Translations under genes and position numbers: made by a program
The notes under the pieces: model-generated
The model's input: the letters and a program-made list of their open reading frames with translations, nothing else
Told to the model about the DNA's origin: nothing
The model's database searches: none
Source: a virus
IMG/VR virus record: IMGVR_UViG_3300030331_000078
Span: 1 to 31,820 of that record
Direction: 5' to 3' (one strand)
DNA: 31,820 nt
Shown here: piece after piece, positions 5,723 to 25,008 of the stretch
How positions within the stretch are numbered: the stretch's first letter is position 1
Layout: each line of letters opens with the position of its first letter

Positions 5723-6167
5723 ATTACAAGAAGAATTAGCAGAAGATGAAGGGTGTAAATATGAAATTTATTTAGACCACCTTGGCTATAAGACGTTTGG
5801 AATTGGGCACTTGTGTAAAGCTACAGATCCAGAAAATGATATGGATGTAGGAACAGAAGTATCTAAAGAGAGAGTCGATGAGTGTTTTAAAGCCGACATA
5901 GAAATAACTATAGAGGACTGTAATATTTTATACAGTAATTTCAATGACATACCAGAAGAAGCTCAACTAATACTAGCAAATATGATGTTTAATCTTGGTC
6001 GTCCTCGTTTAAGTAAATTTTTAAAGTTAAAAGCAGCTGTGGATGATGAAGATTGGATGGAAGCATCTGTGCAAATGATGGACTCGAAATGGGCAAAACA
6101 AGTGCCTAATCGTGCAAAAAGGCTTTGTGAAAGAATGGAGAAGTTATCTTGGCTATTCAAGCAGTAA
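5709..6167 (+). CDS. Endolysin, T4-type lysozyme (GH24)
   Basis: The 152-residue protein has the catalytic triad of T4 lysozyme with identical spacing: Glu14 (in AEDEGC), Asp23 and Thr29 (in YLDHLGYKTFGIGH). The later NMMFNLGRPRLSKF, WMEASVQMMDSKWAKQVPNR and AKRLCERME align in order with the T4 enzyme's NMVFQMG, WDEAAV and NRAKR regions. It hydrolyses the MurNAc-GlcNAc bond of peptidoglycan. The length is close to T4 lysozyme (164). There is no signal peptide or SAR segment, so it should stay in the cytoplasm until the holin upstream opens the membrane. The next gene's ribosome site (GGAG at 6137) and TTG start lie inside its 3' end. Confidence 0.9.
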   Translation: MDLDKLQEELAEDEGCKYEIYLDHLGYKTFGIGHLCKATDPENDMDVGTEVSKERVDECFKADIEITIEDCNILYSNFNDIPEEAQLILANMMFNLGRPRLSKFLKLKAAVDDEDWMEASVQMMDSKWAKQVPNRAKRLCERMEKLSWLFKQ

Positions 6168-7993
6168 AATTAAAACCTGGGATTAATCGTGAAGGCACTA
6201 GATACACTACAGAAGGTGGATATTACGATGGAGATAAAATACGATTCAGGCAAGGCACACCTGAGAAAATAGGTGGTTGGGAACTTATATCTGCAGGAAC
6301 TTATTTAGGTGTAGCAAGATCACTTCATAATTGGGTTAGTTTATCAGGTCAAAATTTTATAGGGGTAGGCACTAATCTAAAATATTATATAGAATTAGGT
6401 GGTGGTTATAACGATGTTACACCTTTACGTGCAACTCAATCATTAACTAATCCATTTACCACTACATCTGGATCAACAACCGTATTAGTAACAGATGCAA
6501 ATGGTGGATTTGTTGACGAAGATTTTGTAACATTTAGTGGTGGTAGTGGAGTTGGTGGTTTGACTATAACTGGTGAATTTCAAATAGATTTAGTATCTGC
6601 TACTTCTTATAATATAACTGTATCTTCCGCTGCTTCATCCTCTGCTACAGGTGGGGGTTCTGTATCAGCGGCATATCAAGTAAATGTTGGCTCCGCGTTT
6701 GCCATACCTCTTACAGGTTGGGGTGCAGGTGCTTGGGGTGCTGGTGCTTGGGGTGTTGGAGAGCCTTCTGTAAACGAAGTGCGTATATGGAGTCACTCTA
6801 ACTTTGGTGAAGATTTAATATTTGGACCAAATGCAGGTAGTATATATCTTTGGGACGCTACAAATGGTGTTACTACTAGAGCCGTTGAATTATCTTCTTT
6901 ATCTGGTGCATCAGATGTTCCTGTATTACAAAATTTAATTTTAGTATCAGATATAAGTCGTTTTGTATTTTGTATGGGTACAAATCCCATAGGTAGTAGT
7001 GCTATTGACCCCACTTTAATTAGATGGTCTGACCAAGAAGATGCAACAAACTGGACTCCATCTGCTACAAATCAAGCAGGTAGTTTAAGATTATCTCGTG
7101 GTACTAAAATAGTTGCAGCTTCGCAAGCCCGTCAAGAGGTGCTCGTTTGGACAGATTCTTCTTTATACTCTTTGCAATACGTTGGTGCGCCAGCCGTGTG
7201 GACAGCTACATTAGTTGGTGAAAACATATCTATATCGTCTCAACTATCTGTATCTTATGCAAACGGTGTAGCGTACTGGATGGGTAAAGATAAATTTTAT
7301 ATGTATGATGGTCGCACACAGCCATTAAAATGTGATGTTCGTAAATATATTTTTAATGATTTTAATACACAACAATACGCACAAGTGTTTTCTGGTACTA
7401 ATGAGTCTTTTCATGAGATATGGTGGTTTTATTGCAGTGCAGGCGTTAATAATATAGACAAATATGTGATATATAATTATTTAGAAAAGATATGGTATTA
7501 TGGCACTTTGGCACGTACAGCATGGCTTGATTCTGGATTACGTGACAAGCCGTTAGCAGCCACATACAGCAATAATCTTGTAAACCACGAAACAGGCACT
7601 GATGATAATGTGACTGGTACAGCAGCGGCTATAACTGCATACGTAGAATCCTCTGATTTTGATATAGGTGATGGCGATAGATTCTCATTAGTAAATCGTG
7701 TAGTGCCTGATGCTTCATTTGACGGCTCTACGGCAGATAGTCCAGTTGCAACCATGACATTACACGCATTAGGTGGTTCTGGGTCTGGTCGTAATTCACC
7801 TGCTTCAGAGGGTGGAGTTAGTAATGCCACTATAACACGCACAGCAACAAGTCCTGTTGAAGTATTTACAGATTTAATAAATATAAGAGTGCGAGGACGA
7901 CAGTTAGCTATGCGTTTTGAGTCCTCTGCAACAGGCGTTACATGGCAGTTAGGTACGCCTAGATTAGATATTAGACCAGATGGGAGACGTTAA
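6149..7993 (+). CDS. Phage stabilization / tail protein, P22 gp10-like
   Basis: The 614-residue protein starts at TTG 6149. GGAG lies 8 bases upstream and the resulting N-terminus MAIQAVKLKPGINREGTRYT is the conserved start of this family, so the TTG is trusted. Next comes YYDGDKIRFRQGTPEKIGGW, typical of proteins annotated as packaged-DNA stabilization protein in podoviruses (P22 gp10 group). Gp10 closes the portal channel below the head. The rest is beta-rich, with a Trp/Gly repeat (GWGAGAWGAGAWGVGEP, about residues 188-205) and a WSDQEDATNW segment that is conserved in such proteins. The C-terminus IRVRGRQLAMRFESSATGVT leads to RPDGRR. There is no membrane segment. It opens the virion block after the lysis genes. 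Confidence 0.7.
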   Translation: MAIQAVKLKPGINREGTRYTTEGGYYDGDKIRFRQGTPEKIGGWELISAGTYLGVARSLHNWVSLSGQNFIGVGTNLKYYIELGGGYNDVTPLRATQSLTNPFTTTSGSTTVLVTDANGGFVDEDFVTFSGGSGVGGLTITGEFQIDLVSATSYNITVSSAASSSATGGGSVSAAYQVNVGSAFAIPLTGWGAGAWGAGAWGVGEPSVNEVRIWSHSNFGEDLIFGPNAGSIYLWDATNGVTTRAVELSSLSGASDVPVLQNLILVSDISRFVFCMGTNPIGSSAIDPTLIRWSDQEDATNWTPSATNQAGSLRLSRGTKIVAASQARQEVLVWTDSSLYSLQYVGAPAVWTATLVGENISISSQLSVSYANGVAYWMGKDKFYMYDGRTQPLKCDVRKYIFNDFNTQQYAQVFSGTNESFHEIWWFYCSAGVNNIDKYVIYNYLEKIWYYGTLARTAWLDSGLRDKPLAATYSNNLVNHETGTDDNVTGTAAAITAYVESSDFDIGDGDRFSLVNRVVPDASFDGSTADSPVATMTLHALGGSGSGRNSPASEGGVSNATITRTATSPVEVFTDLINIRVRGRQLAMRFESSATGVTWQLGTPRLDIRPDGRR

Positions 7994-8187: not shown

Positions 8188-8516
8188 TGCCTAATAAATA
8201 TGTAAATGCAAAAAAAGATTTATCTAGCACTAGTGTAACAACACTATACACAGCACCTGCATTAACTACAGGTATTGTTAAATCCATACTTGTGTCAGAA
8301 GATTCAGGCAATGCAGATACTATAACTTTGACAATAACAGATGCAGAGTCTTCTCCTGCTACTTTTAGCTTATTTAAAACAAAATCTGTTAGTGCAAATG
8401 CTACAGTAGAGTTATTAACAGCTCCTTTAGTTGTAGAAACTGGAGAAATATTAAAAGTTACGGCTGCTACAGCTAATAGATTACATGTTGTTGCCAGTAT
8501 ATTAGAGGTGTCGTAA
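8187..8516 (+). CDS. Beta-rich small virion protein
   Basis: The product has 109 residues from the ATG in the TAATG overlap; an upstream in-frame GTG at 8172 is not needed. The sequence alternates in the manner of a beta sandwich: TTLYTAPALTTGIVKSILVS, then TITLTITDAESSP, then ATVELLTAPLVVETGEILKV. Such 110-residue beta proteins with a TxLYTAP start are common among phage tail and decoration proteins. This one sits between two other small virion genes. Inference: a tail or capsid accessory protein; the exact position in the particle cannot be read. Confidence 0.6.
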   Translation: MPNKYVNAKKDLSSTSVTTLYTAPALTTGIVKSILVSEDSGNADTITLTITDAESSPATFSLFKTKSVSANATVELLTAPLVVETGEILKVTAATANRLHVVASILEVS

Positions 8517-8996: not shown

Positions 8997-11900
8997 ATGG
9001 CTCCAGTAATTAGACCTATAAAAAAGATAATTAAAAAACCAATTAGGTGGATTGGTGACAAACTTAGAGATGTTGGTGATTGGGTTGTTGATGAGATAAT
9101 TGATCCTGTTATAAAGACAGTCGAAGGCACTATAGATGCTTTATTAGACGATCCTGTAAAAACTATAGCTACTATAGCTGCGGTTGCTACAGGAAATGCG
9201 TGGGCTCTGCCTCTTATAGAAGGTGCTGGTGTTGCTGTAAACGGCGGTGACATTGGTGATATTCTTGAAGCAACCGCTAAAGCCTATGTAGCACAACAAG
9301 TAGGTGCAGCCGCAGGTAACTACGCAGGTAAAGCTGCTGCGTCTAGTGCAACTTCAGCAGCACAAGCAAAAATAGTTGGATCTATTGTTGCACAAGGTAC
9401 GTCTAGTGCTACAGCTGCTGTGATATACGGACAAGATCCTGTTGACGCATTTTTAAAAGGTGGTGTGCAGGCTGGTGTGTCTGCAAGTTTAGGTCAATTA
9501 TCAAAGAATACAGATTATCAAAACCTACCACAAGCAGCTAAAAATGTAATAGAAACATCTATAACGGCTACACTATCAGGACAAGATGTAACTCCTGAAA
9601 TGATAGCTGGTGCAGTGACTAAAGCATATGTAACTGCCGAAACAGTAGGATCATATTTAAACAAGACTGAATATGACGAATTTGGAGATGTTCTACCTAA
9701 AGATTTTAACGACGCACAAATTGCAGCTATAACAAATGGTATATTAAATACAGCAAATGCAGCTTTTGCAGGTGGAGATGTGCCAAAAGCTATAATGGAC
9801 TCTGTAATGAAGTATGGAGCTCAAGAGCTTAGCAAAACTATTGATAAAAAAGTTAAAAATACAATAGATAAAGTAACAGGAAATTATGAAGCTACTGCAG
9901 ATAAAGCACAAGATGTTGATGATGCTATAGATTCTTACGAAACTGCTGCTGCTAACTATAATTCCGTTGCTGATGAGATGAAGTCTAGGTTTGATAAAAG
10001 GGCAGACTTTAAAAGAACTGTAGATGAACGTAGAAAAATTTTGCAAGAAACAAATCCTGACAATAACTCTGCTTATCAATCTGCGTTAACCAGATACAAC
10101 ACTGCTGTCAGAGCTTATAACACTTATGCTACAGATTTAGATAAAGATTATGCAGAAAGATATAAGCCATTACTAGATAAATATAAAGCTATGGCGGATG
10201 AAGCACAACAAAACATCGCTACATTTACTAACGAGTATAACACGTTAAAAGATGCGTTAATATCTAGTGGGGATCAGTTGGATGATGCGCTTAAACCTGT
10301 TCAAAGTGCAACTGATAAAGCATTTGTAACTGCCATGATTGGTGAAGATTTTAACCCAGAAGAATATGCAAAATTAAACGGTTTAGACGATGGCGGAGAA
10401 ACAGATGAGGCAGTAGATCCGTACTATCATTGGCTTACTGTAGGTAAAGAAGAAGGTTTACCTATAAACGCAGAACAATATAAGGTGCAATATACACAAA
10501 AAAGAAGTGATTTGTTAAATGAAGCTTTGAGTAAAGCAGGACTAAATTTAAGTAATTTAACCAAAGAACAACAAAAAACTATAATAGATAATTTCGATGC
10601 TAATTACGACGATATACAAACATTAAATTTGATAGATACAGATAGTCTTGGATTAGATATAAGTAAAAATTATTTAATAGACTCTATTAACAACTCCAAT
10701 GCGTCTCAAGAACAAAAAAATAAGTCAATAAATGATGTTAATACGCTTTTTAATGAAAATACGTCAACAGAAGAAAAATTTAACCAAGTTAAGTCTGTTA
10801 CCAATAATGTTAAAATAGATTCTGGTCAGGTAGTTGCAAAAGCAGAGGGCATAACTGATGAAGATATAGTCACTGGTAAAGCTCAAATACATATAGATAA
10901 AAATGGGTTGGTAAATTGGGACGACATTAGTGGATTAGAACTTCCAAAATGGGATTCTATGTATAATACAGTAGTAAAGAAAGTACCACACCCTACAATA
11001 CCTGGCGGATTTACTATAGTAGATGCAGGCACAAACAAGTATTTAAATCTTAACGAAGATGGTAGTCCTATGGTTAATATAACCATACATCCTGGAAATA
11101 CCCTTGAAGATTTACGAAAAAACGACCCTGCTTCTTGGGCTAAACATGTAAATAGTTTGGGGTATAAAGGTGGTCAACTTTTAAATGAAGTAACAAATGC
11201 TGTAAAAGGCACTATGGTAGATCACTATGAGTTAGTAAAAAATATCTACAAATATGCTGCTGAAACAAACACAGGTAAAGATATAATAAATAGTGACGGG
11301 TTTAAAAACCTTAGTGGTATTGCTGCAGAAGCAGGTGGAGAACTATTACAAGCTGCTAACGCATTAGTATTACTTGTAGGTATAAATCCTGAATCTACTC
11401 CACTTGGTAAAACTGCTAGAGAAATGATATCTCTCGGTGGGGATATGAAAACTGATGAATGGAAGGCGGCTAAAAAATCTATAGACGATAGAATAGCAGG
11501 TGCTACAGGGTTTATAGACACAACAAAAGCTATATTTGGTTCTTTAGCTGACAGCCCTACAGTCTTTTTATCAGAAATTATAGGTAAAGAATTATTACAA
11601 GAAGTGCCTGTATTACTTGTTAGTGGTGGCGTGGGTAATGTCGCAAAAAATGTAGTTTTAGAGGCGGGTGAAACATATGCAAAAAAATTAGGAGCAAAAG
11701 TAGGTTTTGGCACAGCTCTTACTCTTGATGCTGTCGAGTCTTTTGGTGGCACGGCAAGTGGAGCTTTTGATGATGCGTATGCAACAGCCTTAAAAGCAGG
11801 TATGTCAGAAGAAGAAGCTTCTGCTTTTGCTCAAGATGTTGCTCTAAGAGCAGGTACTACAGCAGTTATAACCAATTTTGCATTAAATAAAGTTGGTGGT

Positions 11901-14045
11901 GCTGATTTTGAAAAAGCCATGTTTGGTAACAAAAAGGGTGGCTCTATAGCAGAAGCATTTAATGCTTTTAGTAAGAATGTAGTAAAAGAATCTGGAACTG
12001 AAGGTGCTGAAGAGTTTGCTGGTCAAGGCATGGTAGAGTTATCTGTATACGGATTAGATCCAGATAGAGATATAGCTGGTAATCTTACAACAAATACCAT
12101 ACTCGGTGTGCTAGCAGGTGGTGGTACATCTTCTACGTTATTAGCAGGTAAAGGCGCATTTAATCAAACAGGAAATTTTGTGTCAAATGTGGTGTCAAAT
12201 ACTAATTATGAAGTTGATAAAGTATTAAAAGGCTATGATGGCACACCAGAGGGTCTAACAGCCGCAGAAACACAGCTAAATACTCTAGGATTAACTGATA
12301 ATATAGTAAAAACTAATCTACTCAATATAATGAGTCCAAGTGATTATACGAGTAGTGGAGATGTTATAGATGCGTTTAAAAATGTAAAAGATGTATACAT
12401 ACCTAAAAAAGGTGAACAAGATCAATTTGTAGGAAAAACTTCCGATGCAGATTTTGCTACAGAATTTGATACCTATATTGATGCAGGCACTGTGGATAAA
12501 CAAGAAATATTAGATTTAGCTACAGCAGAAGGTATAACACTTACAGATGAACAAATAGCAGAATTAGTGGGTCAAAAGCCTGAAGCAGAGTTTATAACAG
12601 AACAACAAAAGATATTTGATCCTTTGGCTGTAACAGAAGCAGAAGCTAAACAATATCTTGAAGCTCAAGGATATAAACCTACAAATGATGAGGTTAAACA
12701 GTTTGCTAAACAGGTCGCAGAATCAAAACAAAAAGAAGCTATTAAACAGTATGCACAAGATCGTCTTACCACAAAAGATGAAGTTATTTCGTATTTACAA
12801 TCTTTAGGATTTGATACTAATAGACTACCAGCTGAATTTATAGATCAATTTGTAAAACAAGGCTTGCAAACTGATACAGAAAAAGAAATAGCTGAAGCCG
12901 CTGATCCACTTTTTGTAGATAGAGATGAGGTCATAGCACAATTTACAGCCGCTGGACTGCCTGACGTACGACCTGAAGATGTTGATAAATTAGTTGGTCA
13001 ATATAATGAATCTGACCTAGAAAGAAGAGTAAACAGAGCCTTACGTGGTGCACAATATAATGTGCTTAAATATAACATAGGATCTCCATCTACAAAAGAC
13101 ACTCCTGCTACAGGTATATTTAAACAGTTAGAAGAACTAAAAGCTGCAGGTGCTACACAAGATGAGGCTATAAAAGCACTTAGTGAACAACTTAATGTAA
13201 GTATAGATGAATTAACTAGTCAAATATCAGCTGTAGAGTCTGGTATACAAGAGCAAATAATTGACGTAGGCGAACAAATATCTGATGTAGAAGCATCATT
13301 AACAGATCAAATACAAGAACTTGTAGATGCAGGTGCAACTCAAGATGAAGCTATACAAACTCTTAGCGATCAGCTTGGCATTAGTGTAGAAGATCTTACA
13401 AGTCAAATAACAGACGTAGAAACTGGACTTACACAAGAAATAGATCAAATAGCTGATATAATCGGTAAACCTGCAGGTGAAGTGACTGACGTAGATGTTG
13501 ATTTTGTTACCGATCTAATAGCACAACAAGAAGCATTATCTGATCCATCCACGTTTGAACTTACTCCTGAAATGTTGTTATATGATGTTACAGGTGATGG
13601 TAAAGTAGATGCAGCAGATCAAACAGTATTACAAAATGCTCTACAAGGACAAGATGTACAGTTTGCACAAGATTCTAAATTTGCACCAACAGGTATATTT
13701 GGCACTGTAGCTGACACACAAACAGATCTTACACAACAAATAATAGACTCACAAACGCAAATACAAAATTTACTTACACAACAAGCAGAAGATGAAAAAC
13801 AAAGACGTGCCATGCAAGCTCAAAGACAACAAAGAATGCAAAATGTACAACAGTTGTTTGGTGCTCTGCAGCCACAAACAGTTGAAGTAAAACAAGCACC
13901 AATAGCTCAAATAGGTGCACCCTATGATTTTCAAAGTATATTTAGAGATGCTGGACAAGAATCATTTTATAGAACGCCTTACAGAAAAGGTGGACAAGTT
14001 ACAGAAATTAATGATACATTATTAAAACTTATAGGAGATAGCTAA
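8997..14045 (+). CDS. Giant internal virion protein (1682 aa) with dockerin-like calcium motif
   Basis: The basic amphipathic N-terminus (MAPVIRPIKKIIKKPIRWIG) is followed by an Ala/Gly-rich hydrophobic region (to about residue 130), which could insert in membranes. Residues about 295-430 are a long coiled coil. Residues 450-495 contain FNPEEYAKLNGL and DPYYHWLTVGKEEGLPI, like a Tyr/His repeat seen in secreted bacterial proteins. Residues about 900-1050 are another hydrophobic Gly/Ala-rich helical region. Two 38-residue helical repeats occur at 1380-1417 and 1441-1478. Residues 1530-1541 form a calcium loop (DVTGDGKVDAAD) in a dockerin-like setting. The end (DFQSIFRDAGQESFYRTPYR) is conserved in marine phages. 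The size and composition suit an ejected core or tape-measure-like protein. No lytic transglycosylase or polymerase motif was seen. Confidence 0.65.
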   Translation: MAPVIRPIKKIIKKPIRWIGDKLRDVGDWVVDEIIDPVIKTVEGTIDALLDDPVKTIATIAAVATGNAWALPLIEGAGVAVNGGDIGDILEATAKAYVAQQVGAAAGNYAGKAAASSATSAAQAKIVGSIVAQGTSSATAAVIYGQDPVDAFLKGGVQAGVSASLGQLSKNTDYQNLPQAAKNVIETSITATLSGQDVTPEMIAGAVTKAYVTAETVGSYLNKTEYDEFGDVLPKDFNDAQIAAITNGILNTANAAFAGGDVPKAIMDSVMKYGAQELSKTIDKKVKNTIDKVTGNYEATADKAQDVDDAIDSYETAAANYNSVADEMKSRFDKRADFKRTVDERRKILQETNPDNNSAYQSALTRYNTAVRAYNTYATDLDKDYAERYKPLLDKYKAMADEAQQNIATFTNEYNTLKDALISSGDQLDDALKPVQSATDKAFVTAMIGEDFNPEEYAKLNGLDDGGETDEAVDPYYHWLTVGKEEGLPINAEQYKVQYTQKRSDLLNEALSKAGLNLSNLTKEQQKTIIDNFDANYDDIQTLNLIDTDSLGLDISKNYLIDSINNSNASQEQKNKSINDVNTLFNENTSTEEKFNQVKSVTNNVKIDSGQVVAKAEGITDEDIVTGKAQIHIDKNGLVNWDDISGLELPKWDSMYNTVVKKVPHPTIPGGFTIVDAGTNKYLNLNEDGSPMVNITIHPGNTLEDLRKNDPASWAKHVNSLGYKGGQLLNEVTNAVKGTMVDHYELVKNIYKYAAETNTGKDIINSDGFKNLSGIAAEAGGELLQAANALVLLVGINPESTPLGKTAREMISLGGDMKTDEWKAAKKSIDDRIAGATGFIDTTKAIFGSLADSPTVFLSEIIGKELLQEVPVLLVSGGVGNVAKNVVLEAGETYAKKLGAKVGFGTALTLDAVESFGGTASGAFDDAYATALKAGMSEEEASAFAQDVALRAGTTAVITNFALNKVGGADFEKAMFGNKKGGSIAEAFNAFSKNVVKESGTEGAEEFAGQGMVELSVYGLDPDRDIAGNLTTNTILGVLAGGGTSSTLLAGKGAFNQTGNFVSNVVSNTNYEVDKVLKGYDGTPEGLTAAETQLNTLGLTDNIVKTNLLNIMSPSDYTSSGDVIDAFKNVKDVYIPKKGEQDQFVGKTSDADFATEFDTYIDAGTVDKQEILDLATAEGITLTDEQIAELVGQKPEAEFITEQQKIFDPLAVTEAEAKQYLEAQGYKPTNDEVKQFAKQVAESKQKEAIKQYAQDRLTTKDEVISYLQSLGFDTNRLPAEFIDQFVKQGLQTDTEKEIAEAADPLFVDRDEVIAQFTAAGLPDVRPEDVDKLVGQYNESDLERRVNRALRGAQYNVLKYNIGSPSTKDTPATGIFKQLEELKAAGATQDEAIKALSEQLNVSIDELTSQISAVESGIQEQIIDVGEQISDVEASLTDQIQELVDAGATQDEAIQTLSDQLGISVEDLTSQITDVETGLTQEIDQIADIIGKPAGEVTDVDVDFVTDLIAQQEALSDPSTFELTPEMLLYDVTGDGKVDAADQTVLQNALQGQDVQFAQDSKFAPTGIFGTVADTQTDLTQQIIDSQTQIQNLLTQQAEDEKQRRAMQAQRQQRMQNVQQLFGALQPQTVEVKQAPIAQIGAPYDFQSIFRDAGQESFYRTPYRKGGQVTEINDTLLKLIGDS
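13134..13430 (+). repeat. Tandem 61-residue helical repeat inside the 1682-aa protein
   Basis: Two copies of a segment containing GATQDEAI and ending in DLTSQI(S/T)xVE are 183 bases apart (GAT codons at 13149 and 13332). They read ELKAAGATQDEAIKALSEQL and ELVDAGATQDEAIQTLSDQL, so about three quarters of residues agree. A spacer with coiled-coil character separates them. This is an internal duplication that extends a rod-like part of the protein. Confidence 0.7.
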
Positions 14046-14812
14046 TGGCTGACTTTTGGGATGAAATACTAGGTGCTGGTGATACTGCATACCAATATTT
14101 AACCAACACAGGCGATGATGGTTTTCTTGATGATGTGACAGACATATTTCAAAAAGATGATGGTAGTTTAGATTTTAGAAGTATAGCGGGTGGAGTTGGT
14201 GGACTTGCTAGTATATTAGGCTCTGCAGGTGTTATTAGTGGTAATAGTGCTTTAGGTAGGTTTTTAGGTGTGGGTGGTCCTCAAATGACTGGTTATCAAG
14301 GTAAAATACCTACATATACTGCTTCACGTATGCAAGTTCCTGGGACATTTGACCCAAGCCGTAGACCAGGCAGTAGTGGACAACGGTATTTTACAGATGT
14401 GGATTATAGTGGTGGCGATACAAGCGGTGCAGCCGCTGCATTACAAGCAGCAAATTTATCTAACCCTGCAAGGCAAACACCTTCCATACCCACTCCAGTT
14501 CCACAAACACAAACTATGGCTGCAGGTGGTATAGCAGGCATGGCTCCACCTAGATTTCTTAGAAGTGCCACAGATGGTATGTCAGATGAAATACCTGCAA
14601 TGATAGATAAAAAAGACCCAGCAGCATTAAGTGGTGGTGAGTTTGTTGTGCCAGCCGATGTGGTTAGTGGTATAGGTAATGGTAATTCTGATGCAGGGGC
14701 AAAGAATTTATATGAAATGATGGATAAAGTAAGGCAAGCTAGAACAGGCACTACAAGACAAGCTCCAGCTATTAATGCTGATAAAATGCTTGAATCAACG
14801 ATGGAGGCTTAA
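14045..14812 (+). CDS. Virion-block protein with conserved C-terminal motif, unknown
   Basis: A 255-residue protein starting in the TAATG overlap of the giant gene. The N-terminal third is acidic, then comes a hydrophobic Gly/Ser stretch (GGVGGLASILGSAGVISG). A low-complexity Pro/Gln/Ala linker (TPSIPTPVPQTQTMAAGGIA) follows. The C-terminal part MSDEIPAMIDKKDPAALSGG, continuing EFVVPADVVSGIGNGNSDAG and KNLYEMMDKVRQAR, is a well conserved block in marine phage virion proteins. No enzyme motif is seen. Inference: a small internal or assembly protein that works with its giant neighbours. Confidence 0.6.
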   Translation: MADFWDEILGAGDTAYQYLTNTGDDGFLDDVTDIFQKDDGSLDFRSIAGGVGGLASILGSAGVISGNSALGRFLGVGGPQMTGYQGKIPTYTASRMQVPGTFDPSRRPGSSGQRYFTDVDYSGGDTSGAAAALQAANLSNPARQTPSIPTPVPQTQTMAAGGIAGMAPPRFLRSATDGMSDEIPAMIDKKDPAALSGGEFVVPADVVSGIGNGNSDAGAKNLYEMMDKVRQARTGTTRQAPAINADKMLESTMEA

Positions 14813-14814
14813 TT

Positions 14815-15723
14815 ATGGCGAATGGAACAACAGATACAACAGGCATGACTGCTACAACTAGTGCTGGAAGCACATTAGGCAAACAAATAGGTACAGAATC
14901 GGCTCTTTCTAACTATGTTGGACCATATGTTACAGAAATGCTTGGTAGAGGTCAGGCTCTTGCAGGTATGCCATATCAAGCATATCAAGGACCTCTTACA
15001 GCAGGACAATCTGATTTACAAAGTAAAGCATTTAGCGGATTAGCAGGATTAACAATACCTACAGAACAGATGGGTGCATTTACACCAACAAGTTTTACTG
15101 AAGAAGGCACATCTCAAAAGTTTATGAATCCGTATTTAGAGGCAGCTTTACAACCTCAAATAGACGCAGCAAGAAGACAAGCAGAAATACAAAGAGTTCA
15201 GGATGCAGGTAGATTAACTAGAGCAGGTGCATTTGGTGGTTCAAGACAAGGTGTTATGGAAGCTGAAGGTAACCGTGCATTATTAGACAGGATAGCCAGC
15301 ATCACAGGCACAGGATATGCAAATGCTTTTGATAAAGCTGTGCAACAATTTAACGTTGAAGAAGACAGAAGACGAGCTGCTCAAGATATGGCTAACCAGT
15401 TTGGGTTGGGCACATTACTTAAACAAGCAGATATAGGTGCATTACAAAGAGGTATTGAATCTGAAGGTATTGCAGCTGATAGGGCACAGTTTGAAGAAGA
15501 AAGAGACTTCCCATATAAACAAGTACAATATATGCAGTCATTATTGCAAGGTCTACCTCTTGCAGCACAATCATATACGTATCAACAACCTACAGGAATA
15601 AGTGAATTATCGCAGTCTATAGGCGGAGTTCAAAAACTATATGATGCAATATTTGGTGGTGATAAAAATACAGGCATTACAACAAATCAAATGGACGCAA
15701 TAGATACAGGTGATGTGGAGTAA
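14815..15723 (+). CDS. Internal virion protein candidate (302 aa), conserved in marine podoviruses
   Basis: GGAGG lies upstream of the ATG. The core MNPYLEAALQPQIDAARRQA followed by EIQRVQDAGRLTRAGAFGGS and RQGVMEAEGNRALLDRIASI is a highly recognisable block in aquatic podovirus genomes. Next come a long charged helix (RAQFEEERDFPYKQVQYMQS) and a hydrophobic stretch near LLQGLPLAAQSY. The region is almost entirely helical and Gln/Ala-rich, as in T7 gp14/gp15-type ejected proteins, although no direct similarity can be shown by eye. Gene order among larger helical proteins supports a role in the internal core. Function is otherwise unknown. Confidence 0.6.
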   Translation: MANGTTDTTGMTATTSAGSTLGKQIGTESALSNYVGPYVTEMLGRGQALAGMPYQAYQGPLTAGQSDLQSKAFSGLAGLTIPTEQMGAFTPTSFTEEGTSQKFMNPYLEAALQPQIDAARRQAEIQRVQDAGRLTRAGAFGGSRQGVMEAEGNRALLDRIASITGTGYANAFDKAVQQFNVEEDRRRAAQDMANQFGLGTLLKQADIGALQRGIESEGIAADRAQFEEERDFPYKQVQYMQSLLQGLPLAAQSYTYQQPTGISELSQSIGGVQKLYDAIFGGDKNTGITTNQMDAIDTGDVE

Positions 15724-15726
15724 AAA

Positions 15727-17649
15727 ATGATAGGCGCAAATTTAGGTTCAGACGTACAAAGAAGAGTAGATGCTTATAAAGATAATCCTGCAGCATTACA
15801 AAAAAGATACATGCAAAGCCAAGAATTAGTTGATTTACTTGCTATGCAAAAAATGAAATCTGAAAAAGATGCGTATGCTCGTGATATGAGAATGAAGATG
15901 GAGAATAAACCAGCAACTATTGCGCAACAATATGAAGCAGAATTAGCAGGTCGGACTAAAGATGATATATTAAAAGGTGTTAGTGGGGTTCTTAGAAACA
16001 AGCAAGCTAAAGCACAATCAAATATAAATAAAGTAGCAGAGAGTGGTATAGCTAAAGCACCTGCACCTAATATGAAAAAATTGGCAGGTGGTGGTGTAAT
16101 TGGTTTTGCCGCAGGAGATCAAGTGCCAACTTCTTTATCTAAACTGATTGAAGAGAAAAAAGCAGAGTTAGAAAAAAGTTATAGAGCTGGAGATATAGAC
16201 TACGCAGAGTATTCAAAAGAGTTAGCAAAATTAGATGCACCTGCAAAGATAGGACCTGACAGTATAGCTAGAGATGTTTTAGGTAAAGATGGTATAATAA
16301 GTAGTCTAGTAGCAGATCAAAAGTATGACGATCAAAGTATGGGTCTTGGTTTTGGAGCATCTAAAGGTGAAAAAATACAACTTTCTCCTGGGCCTTATAC
16401 CACTGCTCTTACTAATGAGTTACAGAAAAAAACTCCTATTGGCCAATTAATGAAGCGAAACATAAAGAATAGAGCTAGTGAAATGGGTGGTCCTGAAGTT
16501 GCTTTAAAAGGCTCTCCAGCTCTTCCTATTGACGATGAATTTGAGGATGAGCCTTATGAACCTGAAAAGAAACAAGGTATAGCCGCATTAGATGTGCCTC
16601 AAGTAAAAGCAGCAACTATTGATCCAAATTTAGTTAAGTTTGATCCTAATAAAGTAAGTTACACTGCTCCTGATCGTAGTAGTGATATGAAAGATAAAGT
16701 AGCGGCAGGTATAAAATCTTTAATAGCTACAGATAAAGAAGATTTAAGAAAATATCTTGACGTTTCTGATGCACAGAAAGCACAGATAGATCAATTTGCA
16801 ACTGACAGAAAAGGTATAACAGCTAATTTACTTGATCCTGACAGACTTAGACGAGATAGAATATCTGCTGGTTTATTAGCCCCTGGTGGAGCTACACTTG
16901 GTGAGTCTTTAGGAAATATAGGACGAGGTATTTTAGGTGCAGAGGCTGCACAAGATAAAACTAGAATATCTGAATTTGATGCTAATAAAGCCCTATTTGA
17001 TAAAGAATTAGCACGAAGCCAAGGTATTAAGAAAGAAGCTGTGTTAGAAGAAGGAAAACGAATACGTCAAGGTATAGCTTCAGGACAATTATTTAGTGCA
17101 CAACAAGATAAAAATCTTAATGAAGATGCAAGAAATATATTAAATGCTGATATATCTAATGCTAGAAGTCAGGATGCTGCTGATTTACGCAAGATGACAT
17201 ACGGATTGGCACTAGTTAAAGAAGAAAACAAAGTTAATATAGCTAATCAATTAGCTACGAATACTGCAAGGGCAAACGAGTTAAAAGCAGAATTAAATAA
17301 AATAACTAAAGAATCTATGAACGTAAGTAAACTGCAAACTATATTAGGTTCTGTAAATAAAGAAATATCAAGGGCTGCTAAATCAGCAACAGAAGCGTTT
17401 AAATCTGAATTAGAGATGGCACAGTTAACACTGCAAGCAGCTTCAAAAGATACAAATAGTCCAGAATATAGAGCAGCATTAGAAACTCTTAACGATGTAA
17501 GAGGCAGACAGAAGTCCTTATATGACCTAATGGTAAGAGATCTTTCACAGCAAAGAACCGACATACTTAGAAGGTTAGGAGGTGCTGAAGGGACTAAATT
17601 ATCTAAAAATGTACAAAAAGCTTTAAATATAGCAAAAGGCTCAATATAA
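15727..17649 (+). CDS. Helical virion protein (640 aa), internal core candidate
   Basis: The protein begins three bases after the previous stop. The first 110 residues are a charged helix (RRVDAYKDNPAALQKRYMQS; DLLAMQKMKSEKDAY). A Gly-rich switch MKKLAGGGVIGFAAGDQ lies at residues 116-132 and resembles short Gly motifs in neighbouring genes. Residues about 330-620 are predicted by eye to be long coiled coils with many Lys/Glu/Ala/Gln residues. The central part has the block DRLRRDRISAGLLAPGGA, then LGESLGNIGRGILGAE, a hydrophobic interruption typical for proteins of this set. No catalytic motif is seen. Inference: an ejected internal protein or a scaffold-like rod, not an enzyme. I cannot assign a family. 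Confidence 0.6.
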   Translation: MIGANLGSDVQRRVDAYKDNPAALQKRYMQSQELVDLLAMQKMKSEKDAYARDMRMKMENKPATIAQQYEAELAGRTKDDILKGVSGVLRNKQAKAQSNINKVAESGIAKAPAPNMKKLAGGGVIGFAAGDQVPTSLSKLIEEKKAELEKSYRAGDIDYAEYSKELAKLDAPAKIGPDSIARDVLGKDGIISSLVADQKYDDQSMGLGFGASKGEKIQLSPGPYTTALTNELQKKTPIGQLMKRNIKNRASEMGGPEVALKGSPALPIDDEFEDEPYEPEKKQGIAALDVPQVKAATIDPNLVKFDPNKVSYTAPDRSSDMKDKVAAGIKSLIATDKEDLRKYLDVSDAQKAQIDQFATDRKGITANLLDPDRLRRDRISAGLLAPGGATLGESLGNIGRGILGAEAAQDKTRISEFDANKALFDKELARSQGIKKEAVLEEGKRIRQGIASGQLFSAQQDKNLNEDARNILNADISNARSQDAADLRKMTYGLALVKEENKVNIANQLATNTARANELKAELNKITKESMNVSKLQTILGSVNKEISRAAKSATEAFKSELEMAQLTLQAASKDTNSPEYRAALETLNDVRGRQKSLYDLMVRDLSQQRTDILRRLGGAEGTKLSKNVQKALNIAKGSI

Positions 17650-17658
17650 GGAGCAATA

Positions 17659-20600
17659 ATGAGTGAAATAGAAACACTTAGTAACTGGATTATTGCTAAT
17701 CAAGATAAAAAAGGCACTCCTGACTTTGAGGTTGTAGCTAATGCTTTAATAGAGCTATCTGATACATCTGATCCGTTAGTTGATGATGTTTTTAAACTAC
17801 AAGAACTTCCTGAAGAAGCCCCTATAAAAACAGATTTTATTGATGAAATAGAAGAAACTGTAAAAGGTATTGGTGGCGGTGCTGTTAATATATTAGAAAG
17901 TGCTGCTTTAGGTGCTATAACTCCTTTTGGCGAAGATACAGAATCTGAATTACGTGAAACTATACAATCTATAGGTGGGGCTGCAAAGTCTTTATTTGAA
18001 GCTGATAAAGGCTCAGAGGATTTAGTAGGTCGTAAATTTGGTGAAGCTCTAGGATCGTATGCAGGTATACTTGGAGCTGCTGCAATTCCTGGGGTTGGTC
18101 TACCTGCTGCCGCTGCTTTGGCTATAGGTGCTGGTGCTGGTGAGGCAAGTGAACGTGCCCGTGCAGGAGGTGCTACAGAAGATGAACGTGCTAAAGCTTC
18201 AGGTTTAGGTGCTCTCGTAGGTGCAACAGAACTTATATCTCCGATAAGAATAGTTCGTGCATTTAAGAAAGGCGTAGGTGATGACGTAGCAGAGACTATA
18301 TTTACTAAAGGTAAAAGAATATTACGAGAAGCTGGCGTAGAAGGCACACAAGAATTTTTAGCTGGTGTAGGTCAAAACCTTATAGAACAAAATATTTACA
18401 ACCCAGACAAAGGCACATTTACAGGAACTGGAGAAGCTCTTGGTTATGGTGCTGGTGTAGGTGGTTTTGTGCAAGCTGTTATGGAAGTTATCGCACCATA
18501 CAGAGCAAGAGGTAAAACTACAGAAGGAGCACCAGATGAGGCAGAACAAACAAAATTACTAGAAGATAAAAGAAGATTACAATTAGAAGATCAAAGACCT
18601 ACTGTAGATTTTGGACCTAGATTAGAAGAAGGTCAGATACAAGGAGAACTATTTGGTGATTTAGTTAAAGACATAGAAGGTGATCCAAATGTAGTTGAAC
18701 CTGAAAAATTAGTTACAGACACAGAAATAAAAGCCATAGTTGATAAATATCTTCCGAATAGAGATAAAGATGGTAAACCGATAGGAACAGAGGCAGAAAT
18801 ACAAGAAGGGTTTAGTAAAGCTGCAGCAGAAATAAATAATTTAGAACAAAAACGAAAAGAAGAAGCAGCTAAACCAAAAGCAAAAGTAAAAGACGACATC
18901 CCTGTGCAACGAGATATGATTGAAGAGCTCGAAGATGCACAGCTAAAGGGTTTAATAGACGCAGACGAAACTGCACAACTAAGAGATATGTTATCTAAAG
19001 ACGAAGAAGCTGCAATAAAACAATTAAAAACAAAAAGTGAAACATTAAATAATATAGAGCTAAAACAAATAGCTACTAGGTTAGAAAACAAAAGAAAAGC
19101 AGAAACAGCTACAAAACGAAACACTATATTAGATGAAATATTAGCCACCTCTGACACAGCTAGCCAAGTTAATACAGAAAAAACATTTTCTAAGGCGTTA
19201 GCAGATGCTGGTATAGCTAACACTACACCTAATCCACAAGAAAAAGCAAAAATAGCTCGTAAAACTTATGAAATAGAAGAAAGAAAAAAAGGTGTTGCAG
19301 ACGAATCTCCAGAATTTCAACGAGCAGCTAGAAGATTCGGTAAAGAAAGAGTACCAAAAACTGAAATACCTTCATTAGAAAAAGAAGTAAAAGCAAAAGC
19401 CGTATTGCCTAAAAAGCTAAGTGCTACCGCATCTCAAGACGTTGCTCCTGTTACAGAAAAGCCTGCCGTAGAGCCTGCCGTAGAGCCTGCTGTAGAACCT
19501 GCTGTAGAACCTGATAATCCTGTGTTAGAACGTGCGTATAAAAAAATGTCCGAGAACAAACCGTTGACGGACGAAGAGGTAGCAGAATTAGCTAAAGTAG
19601 AGGTCCCAGGAACTATTAGTGAAAAACCCATAGAACCTGATGAAAAACTCCCATCAGGAGAAACTAAAAAAGAATTTGGAGAAAGATATAGGAAAAACTT
19701 TGCAAGGGCAGTCTTTGAGGGTGCAAAAAAGAAAAAGAAAAATTTAAGTGATAGATTATCTAAAGTACAAAAAGGTAATGACAGAGGTCAATATGGTGTA
19801 TTAAATAGACAGCTAGACGAACTTATGGAAAGTGACAAGTCTATTATTGATAACGGACTTCAAATCACTAGAAAATTAGATGAGATGGATGCTTTTGTTA
19901 AAGCTAGAGAGACTGGAGTCGATACAGCTGCGCGTACTGAGTCAAAAACACGTGAAAAGAAGTTAACAGGTGATACTAAACGTAAGAAGGCCCGACAAAA
20001 GCCGTCAGATGATATAGGTGAAACTCTTGGATTTACTAAGAAAGATGTAAAAAGACAAATATCTAAAAAAGTTGACCCGAAAAAACTTGCAGAGCGTTTT
20101 GAAAAGGGGCAAGCAACAAACATAAAGAAAACTGAAGCAAGAGACAAAAAACAATCTGTTGAAGCCTTAAAAGAACAAGGTATTACTAAACCTACAACAG
20201 AACAAATAACTAAAGAAACTAAAAAAAGAAAAGAAAAAGTACAGTCTAAGAGAGATACAAAGTCAAAAATAGATGCTGTAACAAAAGATATTAAGTTAAC
20301 AGAGAAGCGTAAAATAAATGAAAAACAGCTAGCTACTTTTGTACAGGAAGATGTTACTCAAAAAGATAGAGATAAAACTAATGTAATCAAGCCCACTGCA
20401 GCAAGAGTAGCCGCAGATAATATTGAATTTTATATGAAAGAGTTTCCTAATCAGGATGCGACTACACAGTTATCTACAGAAGAATTACAGACAGTATTAG
20501 ATTTAGTAAGTAACCCACCTTCATCTGCTGATATAGCTAACCCTAGCAGGGATAAAACAGGTAGAGCTGCCGCATATGTTTATTTTAGTAAACAAGGAAA

Positions 20601-23600
20601 CCCTAGAGATGTATTAGATGTTGTGGCTCACGACATATTTTTTGCACCTAAACAACAAGATGCGTCAGACTACGAAAGCAAAGCTAGTAGAGAATATTTT
20701 TATAATTCTACAGAACAAAATGCTTTATTAGCTAGAAAATGGATAGACTCTAATTTAGGTAAAAGCCAAGTAAAAATACAAGAAGGTGAAACTGTCTATA
20801 AATTAGATTTTACTAATGTTGATTATGAAAAGAATACTCCAAATATAGATAAGTTAAAAAAGCTTGGGTATACAGATAAAGAAATTAGAAAAATTGTACC
20901 TATAAATCCAGAAACAGGTAAGCCAATACCTAGATTTGATAGGAGAACAAAGCCTAAAAAGAAAGAAGTAAGTACACCAAACATAACTTTTGTGCCTGCA
21001 AATAAAACTTTATACGATCTTATACAAAAAGAAGCTAATAACTATTTAGCTATGGATTCTAATGAAGCCTTGGTATCTTTGGGTGTAAGTAGAAGAGGTG
21101 ATGCGTTTAAGGCTGAAACTTTAAAAACAATACAGGAACAAAGAGAAGCCACAGCACCAAACGCTGTTATATATAACACTAATGAAGTAGTAAGTGGTCA
21201 TCTGCCTCCTGATGCTAAAAATCCAACTCCTGAAATAAAAGGTCTTGTGTTTGTTAAAGATGGTAAAGAGGTTTTTGGACCATTCCCTGAAGGTGTAAAT
21301 CACCCATTAAAAGATGTAAAACTAAAAGACTATAAATTTATAGAAACATCTGCTGTCAATGGACTTGACATACCCGTGCATCCTGTAGTCAATAGTTTAT
21401 TATCGCAAGGTAAACTGCACGAAGCGTTGGTTGCGTTAGGTAATTCTACTGCAAATAAGCGTGTGGCTCAAATAGCTCGTGCATTGTCTAAAGTATCAGG
21501 CACTACCAAAGTTAAAGTAGTAAAGAATCTTACAGCTGATAATTCAGGTAAAGAAGTTTCTGGTAAGTTTGATCCAAAAACAAATACAATATTCTTAGAC
21601 GCAGACACTGGCATCAACTCTCACGTTATACTACACGAGATGACGCATGCGGCTACGACTGAAGCATTGGCAAATAAATCAAGTCAAGAAGTAAAAAAAC
21701 TAACTGTCTTATTTAATTCTGTAAAAGGTATGTTAGACACTGCTTACGGAGCACAAAACTTAGATGAATTTGTAGCAGAAACATTTAGTAATCCTGAGTT
21801 CCAACAAAAACTTGCTGGTATGAATTATAAGAATACCAATGGGTTACAGACATTTTTTAATACCATAGGTAACTTTGTGCGAAAGCTTCTTGGTATGCAA
21901 ACTAAAGATATAAATACTGCACTAAATGAATCTGACCAGTTAATACAAGACATACTATCCCCTGCACCTAAGTTTAGAAATGCAGGTGAACTGCTACTGT
22001 TAAATGGTAAAGAAAGAATAAAAAGAGCAGGTGATTATATAGCTAACAAATATGAACAGACAAAGTCAGGAGAGACTAAACAACAGTTCCAAGAAAGATT
22101 AACAAGTGTTCTTAACAGTAGAGCGGCAAATAAATTAAAAACATGGATTTTAAGATCCCTGCCATTAAAAGCAGTTTCAGATCAAAATGGCGAGTTAAAT
22201 AAAAAAGCTATAGCTAGATTAAAAGAAGAATTAAACAACGTTACTACAGACGCAGAAAAGAAAGCCATACAAGAAAAATTAGCTATACTAAGAAATAACA
22301 CAGCCATGCAAATCAATGATGCCATATTAGATTTAGAAGGAGAGTTGGGTAAAGCTGACAAAGAAGTAGAAGGCACATTAAAAAAGCTAGAGCCTTGGAT
22401 AGTAAGTGCTAAAAAGAGTGGTAAGTTAGAAGCATGGAATGATGTAATACATGATAGCACGATAGAGGGTGTAGATCCTACAGCACCAGAAGATACTTAT
22501 AAGAACGATCCTGAGAAACTAGCAACTTATAAACAACTTAAAACCAAACTTTATGGACTCGGTGGAGATGCTGTAAGAAATTACATAAATCTTAAAAATG
22601 CGTACGAAACTCAATTTGAGCAGTTAAAAAAAGTATTAGAAACAAGAATGGCTGAGTTAACAGATCAAGCTACTTTTTCTAAATTTAAAAAAGATGTATT
22701 TAACAAGATATTTGATAAAGCTGCAATTAGACCTTATTTTCCTCTATTCCGTAAAGGGGACTATTGGTTACGCTATGAGATTCCTGTTACAAAATCTGAT
22801 GGCACAACAACCACAGAGTTAGTTGTAGAGGCTTTTGAAGGTTCTCAAGCTAGATTAAGAAGAATGAACGAGTTAAAAGAAGGTAAAATAGCATCAAATA
22901 TAGAACCTTATACTAACGTAACAACATCAAGTTTTAATAATGTACCTCCTACTTCTTTTGTAGGAGAGGTAATAGACTTACTTAAAAAATCTAACGTAGA
23001 TCAAACAACACAAGATGGTATTTTAAATTTATTTATAGATGTATTACCTGAATCTAGTTTTGCAAAAGGTTTTAAGAAACGAGAAGGTATATTAGGTGCT
23101 AAAAAAGACGCATACGAAGTGCTTAGAGAAAAAGGCTTTGACATCGGGCGACAAACTGCACGTATGTTATATGGTGCAAAAATTGCAAAACTACAAAGAA
23201 AATTAGAAGATGAAACTAAAGCATTTAGATTTGATAAAGAAGGTGAAGCAAGAGTTAGAGTTCAGGCAGAGATGTCAAAGAGAGCAGACTTTGCTAGAAA
23301 TCCTCCACCAGATCATATGGCATCTTTAGCTAACAGACTCGCATTTATAGGCACTATTGGATTTAACGTATCTTCAGCTATAGTTAACTTCTCTCAAATA
23401 CCTCTCATGTTTTATCCTGTGCTTGGAGGGCAGTATGGTTTAAAAGAAGCTAATTCTGCTTTAGGATTATCTACAAGATTGTTTGTAGGTAGTGGTCTAT
23501 CTCGTAAGATGAAGACTTTAAACGGAGATAACGTGGATGCTAAAGGCTCTGTGTCTATAGATAACTATTTTGAAGCTGATGGTGCAAACTTAGTGGTTAG

Positions 23601-25008
23601 AAAAGATTTAGAAGCCATATTAAACAAGACACAAGACGGCAAACAAAAATTAGAACAACTAAACAAAATTATACCATTAATAGTACAAGCACAAAATCAT
23701 GGTCAATTAGGTCGATCTTTATTTTATGATACTTTAAATATTGAATCTGCAGGGAAAACAAGAACTGCTTGGGATACTATAAACGCTTGGTCAGCGTGGA
23801 CTTTTCATCATATGGAGAGAATGAATAGACAAGTAGCACTTGTTGCTACTTATAATTTAGAATTAGATAGATTAAATAAAAAACCAAATTCTAAAGAACA
23901 AGACCTCTCGCCTACAGAAAAGCAAGAGCTCGCTGCAAAAAATGCCATATATTTAACTACAGAAATGAACGGTGGTGCTACTCTATCTACCACATCAGGT
24001 ATTGCTCAACAAGGAATTGGTAGAGTAGCTATGATGTATAAAGGTTATGGTATGCAGATGTATTATACTATGTATACACGTGCTAGAGATGCAATAAGAA
24101 AAGCTAGCGACCCTGATTTAACAGCAGAAGAAAATAAACAACTTAAAAAAGCCGCTATGAAACAAGTATCAGGAATACTTACGTCTTCATTCTTATTAGC
24201 AGGTGTACAGGGTATGCCTTTAATAGGAGGAGCATTATTTATAAGAAATTTACTTAAAGACGATGATGAGGAAGACGCAGAAACAGAATTACGTACATTC
24301 ATAGGAGAAGGTTTTTACAAAGGTCCAATAAATTATTTTGGTGGTGTAGACGTAGCTTCACGTATTGGTTTATCTAACTTGTTATTTAGAGCAAATCCAT
24401 ATCGAGATCCTGATGCAAGTTTAACAGATCAGTTGGGAGAATTACTTACTGGACCTGCAGGTAGTATGGCTAACCAAGTTTACAGAGGTATACAAGAGTT
24501 AAAAGAAGGTGAATTAGAAAGAGCAGCTATGAATTTTGTACCAGCCGCTATACGTAACATGTATAAAGCTACTATCAAGTATCCAACAGAGGGTGGTATA
24601 TTAACAAGACGTGGCGATGTTATATATGATGATTTAAATGCTTGGGAGACGGGAGCACAATTTTTTGGGTTTGCTCCTGCAGAATATACAAAAACACAAG
24701 AAATGAACAGAGTTACTAAAACTCAAGACAGAGATATAGTTAGCCAAAGCACTAAACTACTTAGAAAATATTATGTGGCAATTCGTATGGGTGATGACAC
24801 TCAAGATATTTTAGAGGATATATTAGAGTATAACAGAAAATTTCCTTCTGTTGCCATAACTCCAGACTCTATACTTAGATCTATGAGAATGCACATGAAA
24901 ACTTCTCTGTTAATGGATAGAGGTATAACTTTATCTCCTAAATTAAGGGCGTATCTATTGGCACAAAGAGATGAGTGGTCTCCAGCGTCATTGTATGATG
25001 AAGACTAA
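17659..25008 (+). CDS. Giant polyvalent-type virion protein (2449 aa) with zincin metallopeptidase motif
   Basis: AAGGAG precedes the ATG. In order: a hydrophobic Gly/Ala region at about 80-280 similar to the 1682-aa protein; a Lys/Glu-rich linker region (300-950) with four PAVE units at 602-617; a mixed region to 1290; then a zincin site, ILHEMTHAAT with His1326, Glu1327 and His1330, and a downstream LDEFVAETFSNPEF with Glu1370 or Glu1374 as likely third ligand. Further on are helical regions and a membrane-like C-terminal part (about 1900-2200; NFSQIPLMFYPVLGG, VSGILTSSFLLAGVQGMPLI) ending in an amphipathic helical tail. Such multi-domain proteins are known as phage polyvalent proteins, injected with the DNA. 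Inference: ejected peptidase-bearing protein that may cut host or virion proteins. No RNA polymerase or SLT motif was seen. Confidence 0.7.
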   Translation: MSEIETLSNWIIANQDKKGTPDFEVVANALIELSDTSDPLVDDVFKLQELPEEAPIKTDFIDEIEETVKGIGGGAVNILESAALGAITPFGEDTESELRETIQSIGGAAKSLFEADKGSEDLVGRKFGEALGSYAGILGAAAIPGVGLPAAAALAIGAGAGEASERARAGGATEDERAKASGLGALVGATELISPIRIVRAFKKGVGDDVAETIFTKGKRILREAGVEGTQEFLAGVGQNLIEQNIYNPDKGTFTGTGEALGYGAGVGGFVQAVMEVIAPYRARGKTTEGAPDEAEQTKLLEDKRRLQLEDQRPTVDFGPRLEEGQIQGELFGDLVKDIEGDPNVVEPEKLVTDTEIKAIVDKYLPNRDKDGKPIGTEAEIQEGFSKAAAEINNLEQKRKEEAAKPKAKVKDDIPVQRDMIEELEDAQLKGLIDADETAQLRDMLSKDEEAAIKQLKTKSETLNNIELKQIATRLENKRKAETATKRNTILDEILATSDTASQVNTEKTFSKALADAGIANTTPNPQEKAKIARKTYEIEERKKGVADESPEFQRAARRFGKERVPKTEIPSLEKEVKAKAVLPKKLSATASQDVAPVTEKPAVEPAVEPAVEPAVEPDNPVLERAYKKMSENKPLTDEEVAELAKVEVPGTISEKPIEPDEKLPSGETKKEFGERYRKNFARAVFEGAKKKKKNLSDRLSKVQKGNDRGQYGVLNRQLDELMESDKSIIDNGLQITRKLDEMDAFVKARETGVDTAARTESKTREKKLTGDTKRKKARQKPSDDIGETLGFTKKDVKRQISKKVDPKKLAERFEKGQATNIKKTEARDKKQSVEALKEQGITKPTTEQITKETKKRKEKVQSKRDTKSKIDAVTKDIKLTEKRKINEKQLATFVQEDVTQKDRDKTNVIKPTAARVAADNIEFYMKEFPNQDATTQLSTEELQTVLDLVSNPPSSADIANPSRDKTGRAAAYVYFSKQGNPRDVLDVVAHDIFFAPKQQDASDYESKASREYFYNSTEQNALLARKWIDSNLGKSQVKIQEGETVYKLDFTNVDYEKNTPNIDKLKKLGYTDKEIRKIVPINPETGKPIPRFDRRTKPKKKEVSTPNITFVPANKTLYDLIQKEANNYLAMDSNEALVSLGVSRRGDAFKAETLKTIQEQREATAPNAVIYNTNEVVSGHLPPDAKNPTPEIKGLVFVKDGKEVFGPFPEGVNHPLKDVKLKDYKFIETSAVNGLDIPVHPVVNSLLSQGKLHEALVALGNSTANKRVAQIARALSKVSGTTKVKVVKNLTADNSGKEVSGKFDPKTNTIFLDADTGINSHVILHEMTHAATTEALANKSSQEVKKLTVLFNSVKGMLDTAYGAQNLDEFVAETFSNPEFQQKLAGMNYKNTNGLQTFFNTIGNFVRKLLGMQTKDINTALNESDQLIQDILSPAPKFRNAGELLLLNGKERIKRAGDYIANKYEQTKSGETKQQFQERLTSVLNSRAANKLKTWILRSLPLKAVSDQNGELNKKAIARLKEELNNVTTDAEKKAIQEKLAILRNNTAMQINDAILDLEGELGKADKEVEGTLKKLEPWIVSAKKSGKLEAWNDVIHDSTIEGVDPTAPEDTYKNDPEKLATYKQLKTKLYGLGGDAVRNYINLKNAYETQFEQLKKVLETRMAELTDQATFSKFKKDVFNKIFDKAAIRPYFPLFRKGDYWLRYEIPVTKSDGTTTTELVVEAFEGSQARLRRMNELKEGKIASNIEPYTNVTTSSFNNVPPTSFVGEVIDLLKKSNVDQTTQDGILNLFIDVLPESSFAKGFKKREGILGAKKDAYEVLREKGFDIGRQTARMLYGAKIAKLQRKLEDETKAFRFDKEGEARVRVQAEMSKRADFARNPPPDHMASLANRLAFIGTIGFNVSSAIVNFSQIPLMFYPVLGGQYGLKEANSALGLSTRLFVGSGLSRKMKTLNGDNVDAKGSVSIDNYFEADGANLVVRKDLEAILNKTQDGKQKLEQLNKIIPLIVQAQNHGQLGRSLFYDTLNIESAGKTRTAWDTINAWSAWTFHHMERMNRQVALVATYNLELDRLNKKPNSKEQDLSPTEKQELAAKNAIYLTTEMNGGATLSTTSGIAQQGIGRVAMMYKGYGMQMYYTMYTRARDAIRKASDPDLTAEENKQLKKAAMKQVSGILTSSFLLAGVQGMPLIGGALFIRNLLKDDDEEDAETELRTFIGEGFYKGPINYFGGVDVASRIGLSNLLFRANPYRDPDASLTDQLGELLTGPAGSMANQVYRGIQELKEGELERAAMNFVPAAIRNMYKATIKYPTEGGILTRRGDVIYDDLNAWETGAQFFGFAPAEYTKTQEMNRVTKTQDRDIVSQSTKLLRKYYVAIRMGDDTQDILEDILEYNRKFPSVAITPDSILRSMRMHMKTSLLMDRGITLSPKLRAYLLAQRDEWSPASLYDED
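19462..19509 (+). repeat. Four 12-base units encoding PAVE
   Basis: Four in-frame copies of the 12-base unit (first two identical, last two identical with two third-position changes) code for PAVEPAVEPAVEPAVE in the linker of the 2449-aa protein. A unit that can slip makes a length-variable linker. Confidence 0.85.

Follow-up and report, generated by a model that had tools for sequence, protein, structure and literature searches.

The DNA analysed here (the window, 31,820 bases) is the entire IMG/VR virus record IMGVR_UViG_3300030331_000078. It contains a giant open reading frame (ORF) encoding 1682 amino acids, for which the PHROGs collection gave no convincing family match. Near the C-terminus of this giant, the translation of positions 13581-13650 (plus strand) reads YDVTGDGKVDAADQTVLQNALQG, which includes a predicted calcium loop. 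The gene of a tail stabilisation-like protein and several small ORFs lie upstream of the giant; three ORFs (14045, 14815, and 15727) and the gene of a 2449-aa protein (17659) follow it, after which the coding strand switches (Table 1). This order, from the stabilisation protein through the small ORFs and the giant to ORF 17659, recurs at the loci compared (at least 11), not all of which are complete.

Table 1. Features of the giant ORF, its dockerin-fold module, and the neighbouring genes in the window
Feature	Position	Strand	Basis
Tail stabilisation-like protein (phrog_3287), upstream of the giant	6149..7993	+	PHROGs match
Giant ORF, 1682 aa, which includes the module and probably encodes an ejection (internal virion) protein	8997..14045	+	ORF list, SU10-like gene order
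Coiled-coil-like repeat, copy 1	13129..13243	+	74% DNA identity with copy 2; coiled coil by eye
Coiled-coil-like repeat, copy 2	13312..13426	+	DNA repeat; coiled coil by eye
Entering helix (predicted)	13413..13463	+	Module model residues 2-18
Dockerin-fold module, 76 residues	13440..13667	+	Profile match, Dockerin_1 32.5 bits, predicted fold
Degenerate loop 1 (IGKPAGEVTDVD), lacking an acid at positions 1, 3, and 5; Gly2, Thr9, Asp12 kept	13461..13496	+	
Helix after loop 1 (predicted)	13488..13532	+	Module model residues 27-41
Intact predicted calcium loop 2 (DVTGDGKVDAAD), 12 residues	13584..13619	+	Translation and conservation
Helix after loop 2 (predicted)	13611..13643	+	Module model residues 68-78
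Conserved SKFAPTGIF stretch after the module	13674..13700	+	Thr in 76/81, Gly in 77/81
Conserved C-terminal tail of the giant, YDFxSIF...PYxxGG...LLxLIG	13875..14042	+	
Three ORFs (14045, 14815, 15727) of the putative ejection block	14045..17649	+	
2449-aa protein, distantly related to SU10 ejection protein gp24	17659..25008	+	hhalign 84.7%, E 6.7e-6, 207 columns

The module is flanked on both sides by long predicted helices, and the coiled-coil-like repeats lie upstream of it. Giants with the module that are complete at both ends range from 1169 to 3129 aa (60 ORFs), and the distance from the end of the module to the C-terminus of the giant is 117-165 residues in the 79 ORFs that reach their stop.

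A putative ejection block resembling that of SU10

In SU10 (PMC9509320), the needle gene, gp19, and gp20-gp24 come after gp17, the nozzle gene, and lead up to a strand switch; gp20-gp24 are present in the virion and gone after genome release. The block in the window occupies the same place as gp20-gp24, after the nozzle or stabilisation gene and before the strand switch, and its last gene is related to gp24. The giant differs from its SU10 counterparts in being larger than any of gp20-gp24 and in having no detectable sequence relation to gp17-gp24 (hhalign, best value 2.6%, with gp24). ORFs 14045, 14815, and 15727 likewise gave no match to gp17-gp24; only ORF 17659 aligned, with gp24. ORF 14815 showed a weak match to phrog_4287, annotated as 'DNA ejection protein' (E 0.0047). 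The product of ORF 17659 also matches the C-terminal part of the DarB-like phrog_10089 (E 6.6e-55), which ties an 'antirestriction' name to a protein of the ejection block.

From the SU10 gene order, the gp24 relative, and a SU10-type portal, which exceeded the cut-off in 16 of the 22 records searched, we take the giant, with moderate confidence, to be an internal protein that is ejected. Because the giant lacks a sequence match to gp17-gp24, this assignment is positional, and the term 'virion protein' used for it in the original prediction is likewise a reading of the gene order alone. Stretches containing GG (MAAGGIAG, LAGGGVIGF) were seen in the neighbours 14045-14812 and 15727-17649, and PYxxGG in the C-terminal tail of the giant; they are possibly a common signal in the proteins of the block.

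Recruitment of relatives

Two sets of relatives were assembled. For the first, 105 relatives were found and 80 loci were kept; its recruiting patterns include loop 2, which biases loop conservation in this set, and a second set was therefore recruited through the C-terminal tail of the giant. The tail-recruited set comprises 80 loci, of which 58 have an aligned loop 2 (60 copies, 47 distinct loop pairs). Some loci of the two sets share a record or come from near-identical records. An alignment of 81 rows covers 81 of the 84 non-redundant modules, the remaining three (L058, L124, and L148) having been left out as truncated. Profile scans for cohesin and Dockerin_1 were run over 50 records and those for the portal over 22. 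The module profile found one module per ORF in 81 ORFs of the first set. In two loci of the tail-recruited set, L120 and L142, the same giant was seen to contain a further copy of the loop (DVTGDGRITSAD, DWNGDGRITSSD).

The module spans two repeats of a predicted dockerin fold

The isolated module scored 32.5 bits against the Pfam profile Dockerin_1 (PF00404; cut-off 22.9), which bears out the dockerin likeness put forward in the original prediction; the whole 1682-aa protein, at 19.5 bits, stayed under the same cut-off. Among the 81 non-redundant modules, 72 matched Dockerin_1 at E≤0.1, and in the 50 virus records the profile was found over the cut-off in 12 and at E≤0.01 in 39. Many relatives show one Dockerin_1 match that covers both halves of the module (profile positions 9-56), the first of which consists of IGKPAGEVTDVD and a helix. 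When a profile of the module was compared with the PDB, the best E-value was 2.8e-6, and the top rows were mostly dockerins or cellulosomal enzymes.

A model of the whole C-terminal part reached a pTM of 0.31 and returned a mixed list of PDB matches, which is why the module was modelled alone. The resulting model, based on the 81-row alignment, had a pLDDT of 92.3 and a pTM of 0.78. In a Foldseek search of the PDB, its best 15 matches were dockerins or their complexes, at weak E-values of 0.23 to 1.4, and no match was obtained at E≤0.001. Dockerins made up 20 of the 23 rows of a VIA realignment, with Z-scores of 4.6-6.6, values that, being under 8, can reflect a common arrangement; the other three rows had Z-scores of 2.2-2.3. 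The dockerin alignments span both loop-helix units of the predicted model. BFVD contains several entries named 'Dockerin type 1', and two of these phage proteins (A0A8S5NQH0 and A0A8S5M688) were weak structural matches (E 0.25 and 0.67, respectively).

As modelled, the module is composed of two tandem F-hand-like units in a dockerin fold. The original prediction had recorded only one repeat: a single intact loop is indeed present, but it is preceded by a first repeat that had gone unrecorded because it is degenerate. The lone calcium-stabilised turn in a rod that was proposed on this basis is ruled out, as the profile and fold matches cover two repeats. An EF-hand pair shares the layout of the calcium loop and the helices before and after the loops; an ordinary EF-hand (PF00036/PF13499) is nevertheless ruled out, since EF-hand families matched at most 6 of the 81 modules at E≤0.1 and loop position 12 is occupied by Asp instead of Glu.

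One calcium site is conserved and the other replaced

A loose calcium-loop pattern occurs once in the real giant and was matched by 43 of 20,000 residue-shuffled versions, so that chance alone is an unlikely origin; the matter is settled by conservation. All 47 distinct copies in the tail-recruited set have Asp1, Asp5, and Asp12 in loop 2. Position 3 of loop 2 is occupied by Thr in 26 of the 47 loop pairs, by Asn in 19, and by Asp in 2; position 9 is occupied by Asp in 34 and by Thr in 13. The calcium ligands are likewise kept in 81 of the 81 aligned modules, Asp12 among them, in an alignment whose most divergent members share 23% identity with the window; position 3 is here T in 61, N in 18, and D in 2 modules. 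Both Asp codons occur at all three sites in 52 distinct DNA loops, indicating that Asp is conserved as protein. The F-hand layout originally described is therefore real with regard to the loop and its three Asp residues, which were not lost in the relatives, whereas position 3 is Thr and not Asn or Asp.

Loop 1 presents a different set of residues. Among the distinct tail-recruited copies, position 1 is V, I, or L, position 3 is K, R, or Q (apart from one I and one T), and position 5 is mostly A, T, or P. An acid at position 1 or 3 was found in no ungapped copy, and a single Glu at position 5. Asp12 was nevertheless retained in 44 of 45 ungapped copies, and in the 81-row set Gly2 is found in 81, Thr9 in 79, and Asp12 in 80 modules. 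As judged from these residues, one calcium site is firmly maintained, whereas the other is replaced. Loop 2 would then probably bind one calcium ion, and loop 1 would be a calcium-free turn that keeps Thr-x-x-Asp and probably serves as a helix cap. As one of the two calcium sites is replaced, the module, whose predicted fold serves bacteria in docking cellulose-digesting enzymes, is for the phage probably a calcium-stabilised building block rather than an enzyme plug.

The same pattern, with the ligands of loop 2 under strong selection and those of loop 1 gone, would also suit a folding switch triggered by calcium. The module would be loose in the low-calcium cytoplasm and lock on meeting millimolar calcium, whether in the periplasm or in sea water, and locking would aid the one-way passage or the assembly of the ejected protein, as RTX domains fold on secretion. 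The location of the module towards the C-terminus of what is probably an ejection protein is consistent with this idea, as is the calcium-driven folding described for RTX domains. However, there is a single site, the direction of ejection and any unfolding are purely presumed, and such a switch appears unlikely to us.

Search for a cohesin-type partner

As suggested by the Dockerin_1 match and the predicted dockerin fold, the module could anchor the giant by docking to a cohesin-like partner, either within the virion or on the host. However, no cohesin recognisable by the PF00963 profile was found in any of the 50 virus records searched, which are often fragments. In PMC4728124, the cohesin contacts of Clostridium thermocellum dockerins are placed at F-hand positions 11, 12, 18, and 19, which by our own conversion are loop positions 10, 11, 17, and 18. 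In the 81 modules, loop 2 mostly has I/Q/A and N/A/T rather than Ser-Thr at positions 10-11, and mostly E/Q and Q/D/T at 17-18, with no Lys-Arg pair in the helix; since contacts vary between species, this comparison covers the C. thermocellum type only.

The small protein encoded at 8172-8516, which is all-beta by eye, was considered as a hidden cohesin and rejected. A phmmer search of the PDB with this protein returned no cohesin (best match 5cyx, E 0.039), and its gene does not track the module: 31 of the 62 module-bearing loci have it, as do 7 of the 12 module-less ones. The protein was also detected in cultured relatives that lack the module, in two by tblastn (L170 and L171) and in four by profile. 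Roseobacter phage CRP-901 encodes a relative with 60% identity, and a gene at this location in that phage is annotated as a putative immunoglobulin domain protein. Taken with the missing cohesin and the contact residues that are not kept, these results speak against the docking to a cohesin-type partner that the original prediction had considered, and we regard it as improbable.

Relatives without the module and distribution

In a looser count of the tail-recruited set, 60 of 80 proteins matched the module profile (including L148, which has only the first half of the module) and 20 did not, although this share is not a fair estimate because the tail query was built from module-bearing proteins. 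The 20 include L118, which keeps the loop by motif, and several short fragments (six frames of at most 317 aa), and modules without the Asp residues in the most divergent members could escape the profile. The module is thus not indispensable. Module-less tail-bearing relatives that are long enough to judge have acidic or Gly-rich repeats, or a plain helix, at its place. Within the C-terminal 230 aa of L128, L140, L147, L154, and L156, Pro-Asp, Val-Asp, Thr-Asp, or Gly-Thr repeats were seen to replace the module.

The Thr-Asp, Pro-Asp, Gly-Thr, or plain helical stretches of these relatives could mean that the module serves as a passive spacer in which calcium is incidental, and that inserts of several kinds can stand in for one another between body and tail. 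The retention of the ligands in every aligned module, even at the lowest identity in the alignment, is unexpected for a passive spacer, which we consider improbable.

Scans of genome contigs revealed no host or prophage relatives. A cultured carrier was not found either, as tblastn searches with the whole giant, the module, and the module of L007 gave no match in 50,697 phage records. A distant giant (L123) gave one short N-terminal match to cultured phage records (MW202545). The module was absent from five cultured relatives of the stabilisation gene, in a search part of which ran without a positive control. The phages carrying the module are an uncultured group.

Other EF-hand-like loops

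One classic EF-hand loop (DLDGDGIVSDEE) was noticed in a 104-aa protein with likely two membrane helices (by eye), which is encoded at 4045-4359 (plus strand), shortly upstream of the genes for a 3TM holin (4556-4951) and for a lysozyme (5709-6167). Relatives of this protein were found in 11 loci; it is a possible calcium-binding membrane protein of the lysis cassette. EF-hand-like loops that were weak and below inclusion were also seen in small proteins of the Pelagibacter phages HTVC027P (L173:4877-5152, DLTGDGEVTKAD) and HTVC023P (L169:5119-5499, DKNKDGKISGED).

Discussion

With type I dockerins (PF00404; PDB 1ohz_B, 8x39, and 4dh2), the module has in common the F-hand loop with Asp12, the two repeats, the predicted fold, and the profile score. 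It differs in that loop 1 has no calcium ligands, the contacts of the C. thermocellum type are not kept, no cohesin was found, and the module lies inside a giant phage protein, whereas dockerins are found in secreted enzymes. Because two features of cellulosomal dockerins failed, we use the term dockerin-fold module; it is not a cellulosomal dockerin. Dockerin-like proteins in phages are already known, and the novelty here is a variant with one calcium site replaced. Gene 40 of phage VvAW1 was identified by BLASTP as encoding a dockerin-like protein (PMC3558961), and it shares with the module the description as a dockerin-like domain in a phage. Among the papers listed in searches on dockerins in phages, virions, or viruses, we recognised none describing this module.

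We consider it fairly probable that the module is a one-calcium, dockerin-fold structural cap or spacer in a probable ejection protein, with calcium binding, virion location, and role all putative. As a calcium-stabilised cap or spacer, it would end one coiled coil and, during assembly or once ejected, supply the C-terminal part of the giant with a folded unit. To read it as a cap, stabilised by calcium, that breaks up the coiled coil is the most economical, and the preference of the original prediction for a calcium-stabilised structural element is retained in this reading.

It seems rather unlikely that this SU10-type phage group as a whole equips an ejected protein with a calcium switch made from a repurposed dockerin, with one site lost and the other frozen. 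If it did, the switch would be loose during synthesis and storage and would lock on contact with external calcium, and the calcium of the periplasm or of sea water would drive or time DNA delivery.

The module offers a first structural entry point to the giant proteins of the presumed ejection block in an uncultured phage group. It suggests that a dockerin fold may work without cohesin even though one of its calcium sites is consistently dead, and it reduces calcium control of ejection proteins to a simple question that concerns one 76-residue domain and one site.
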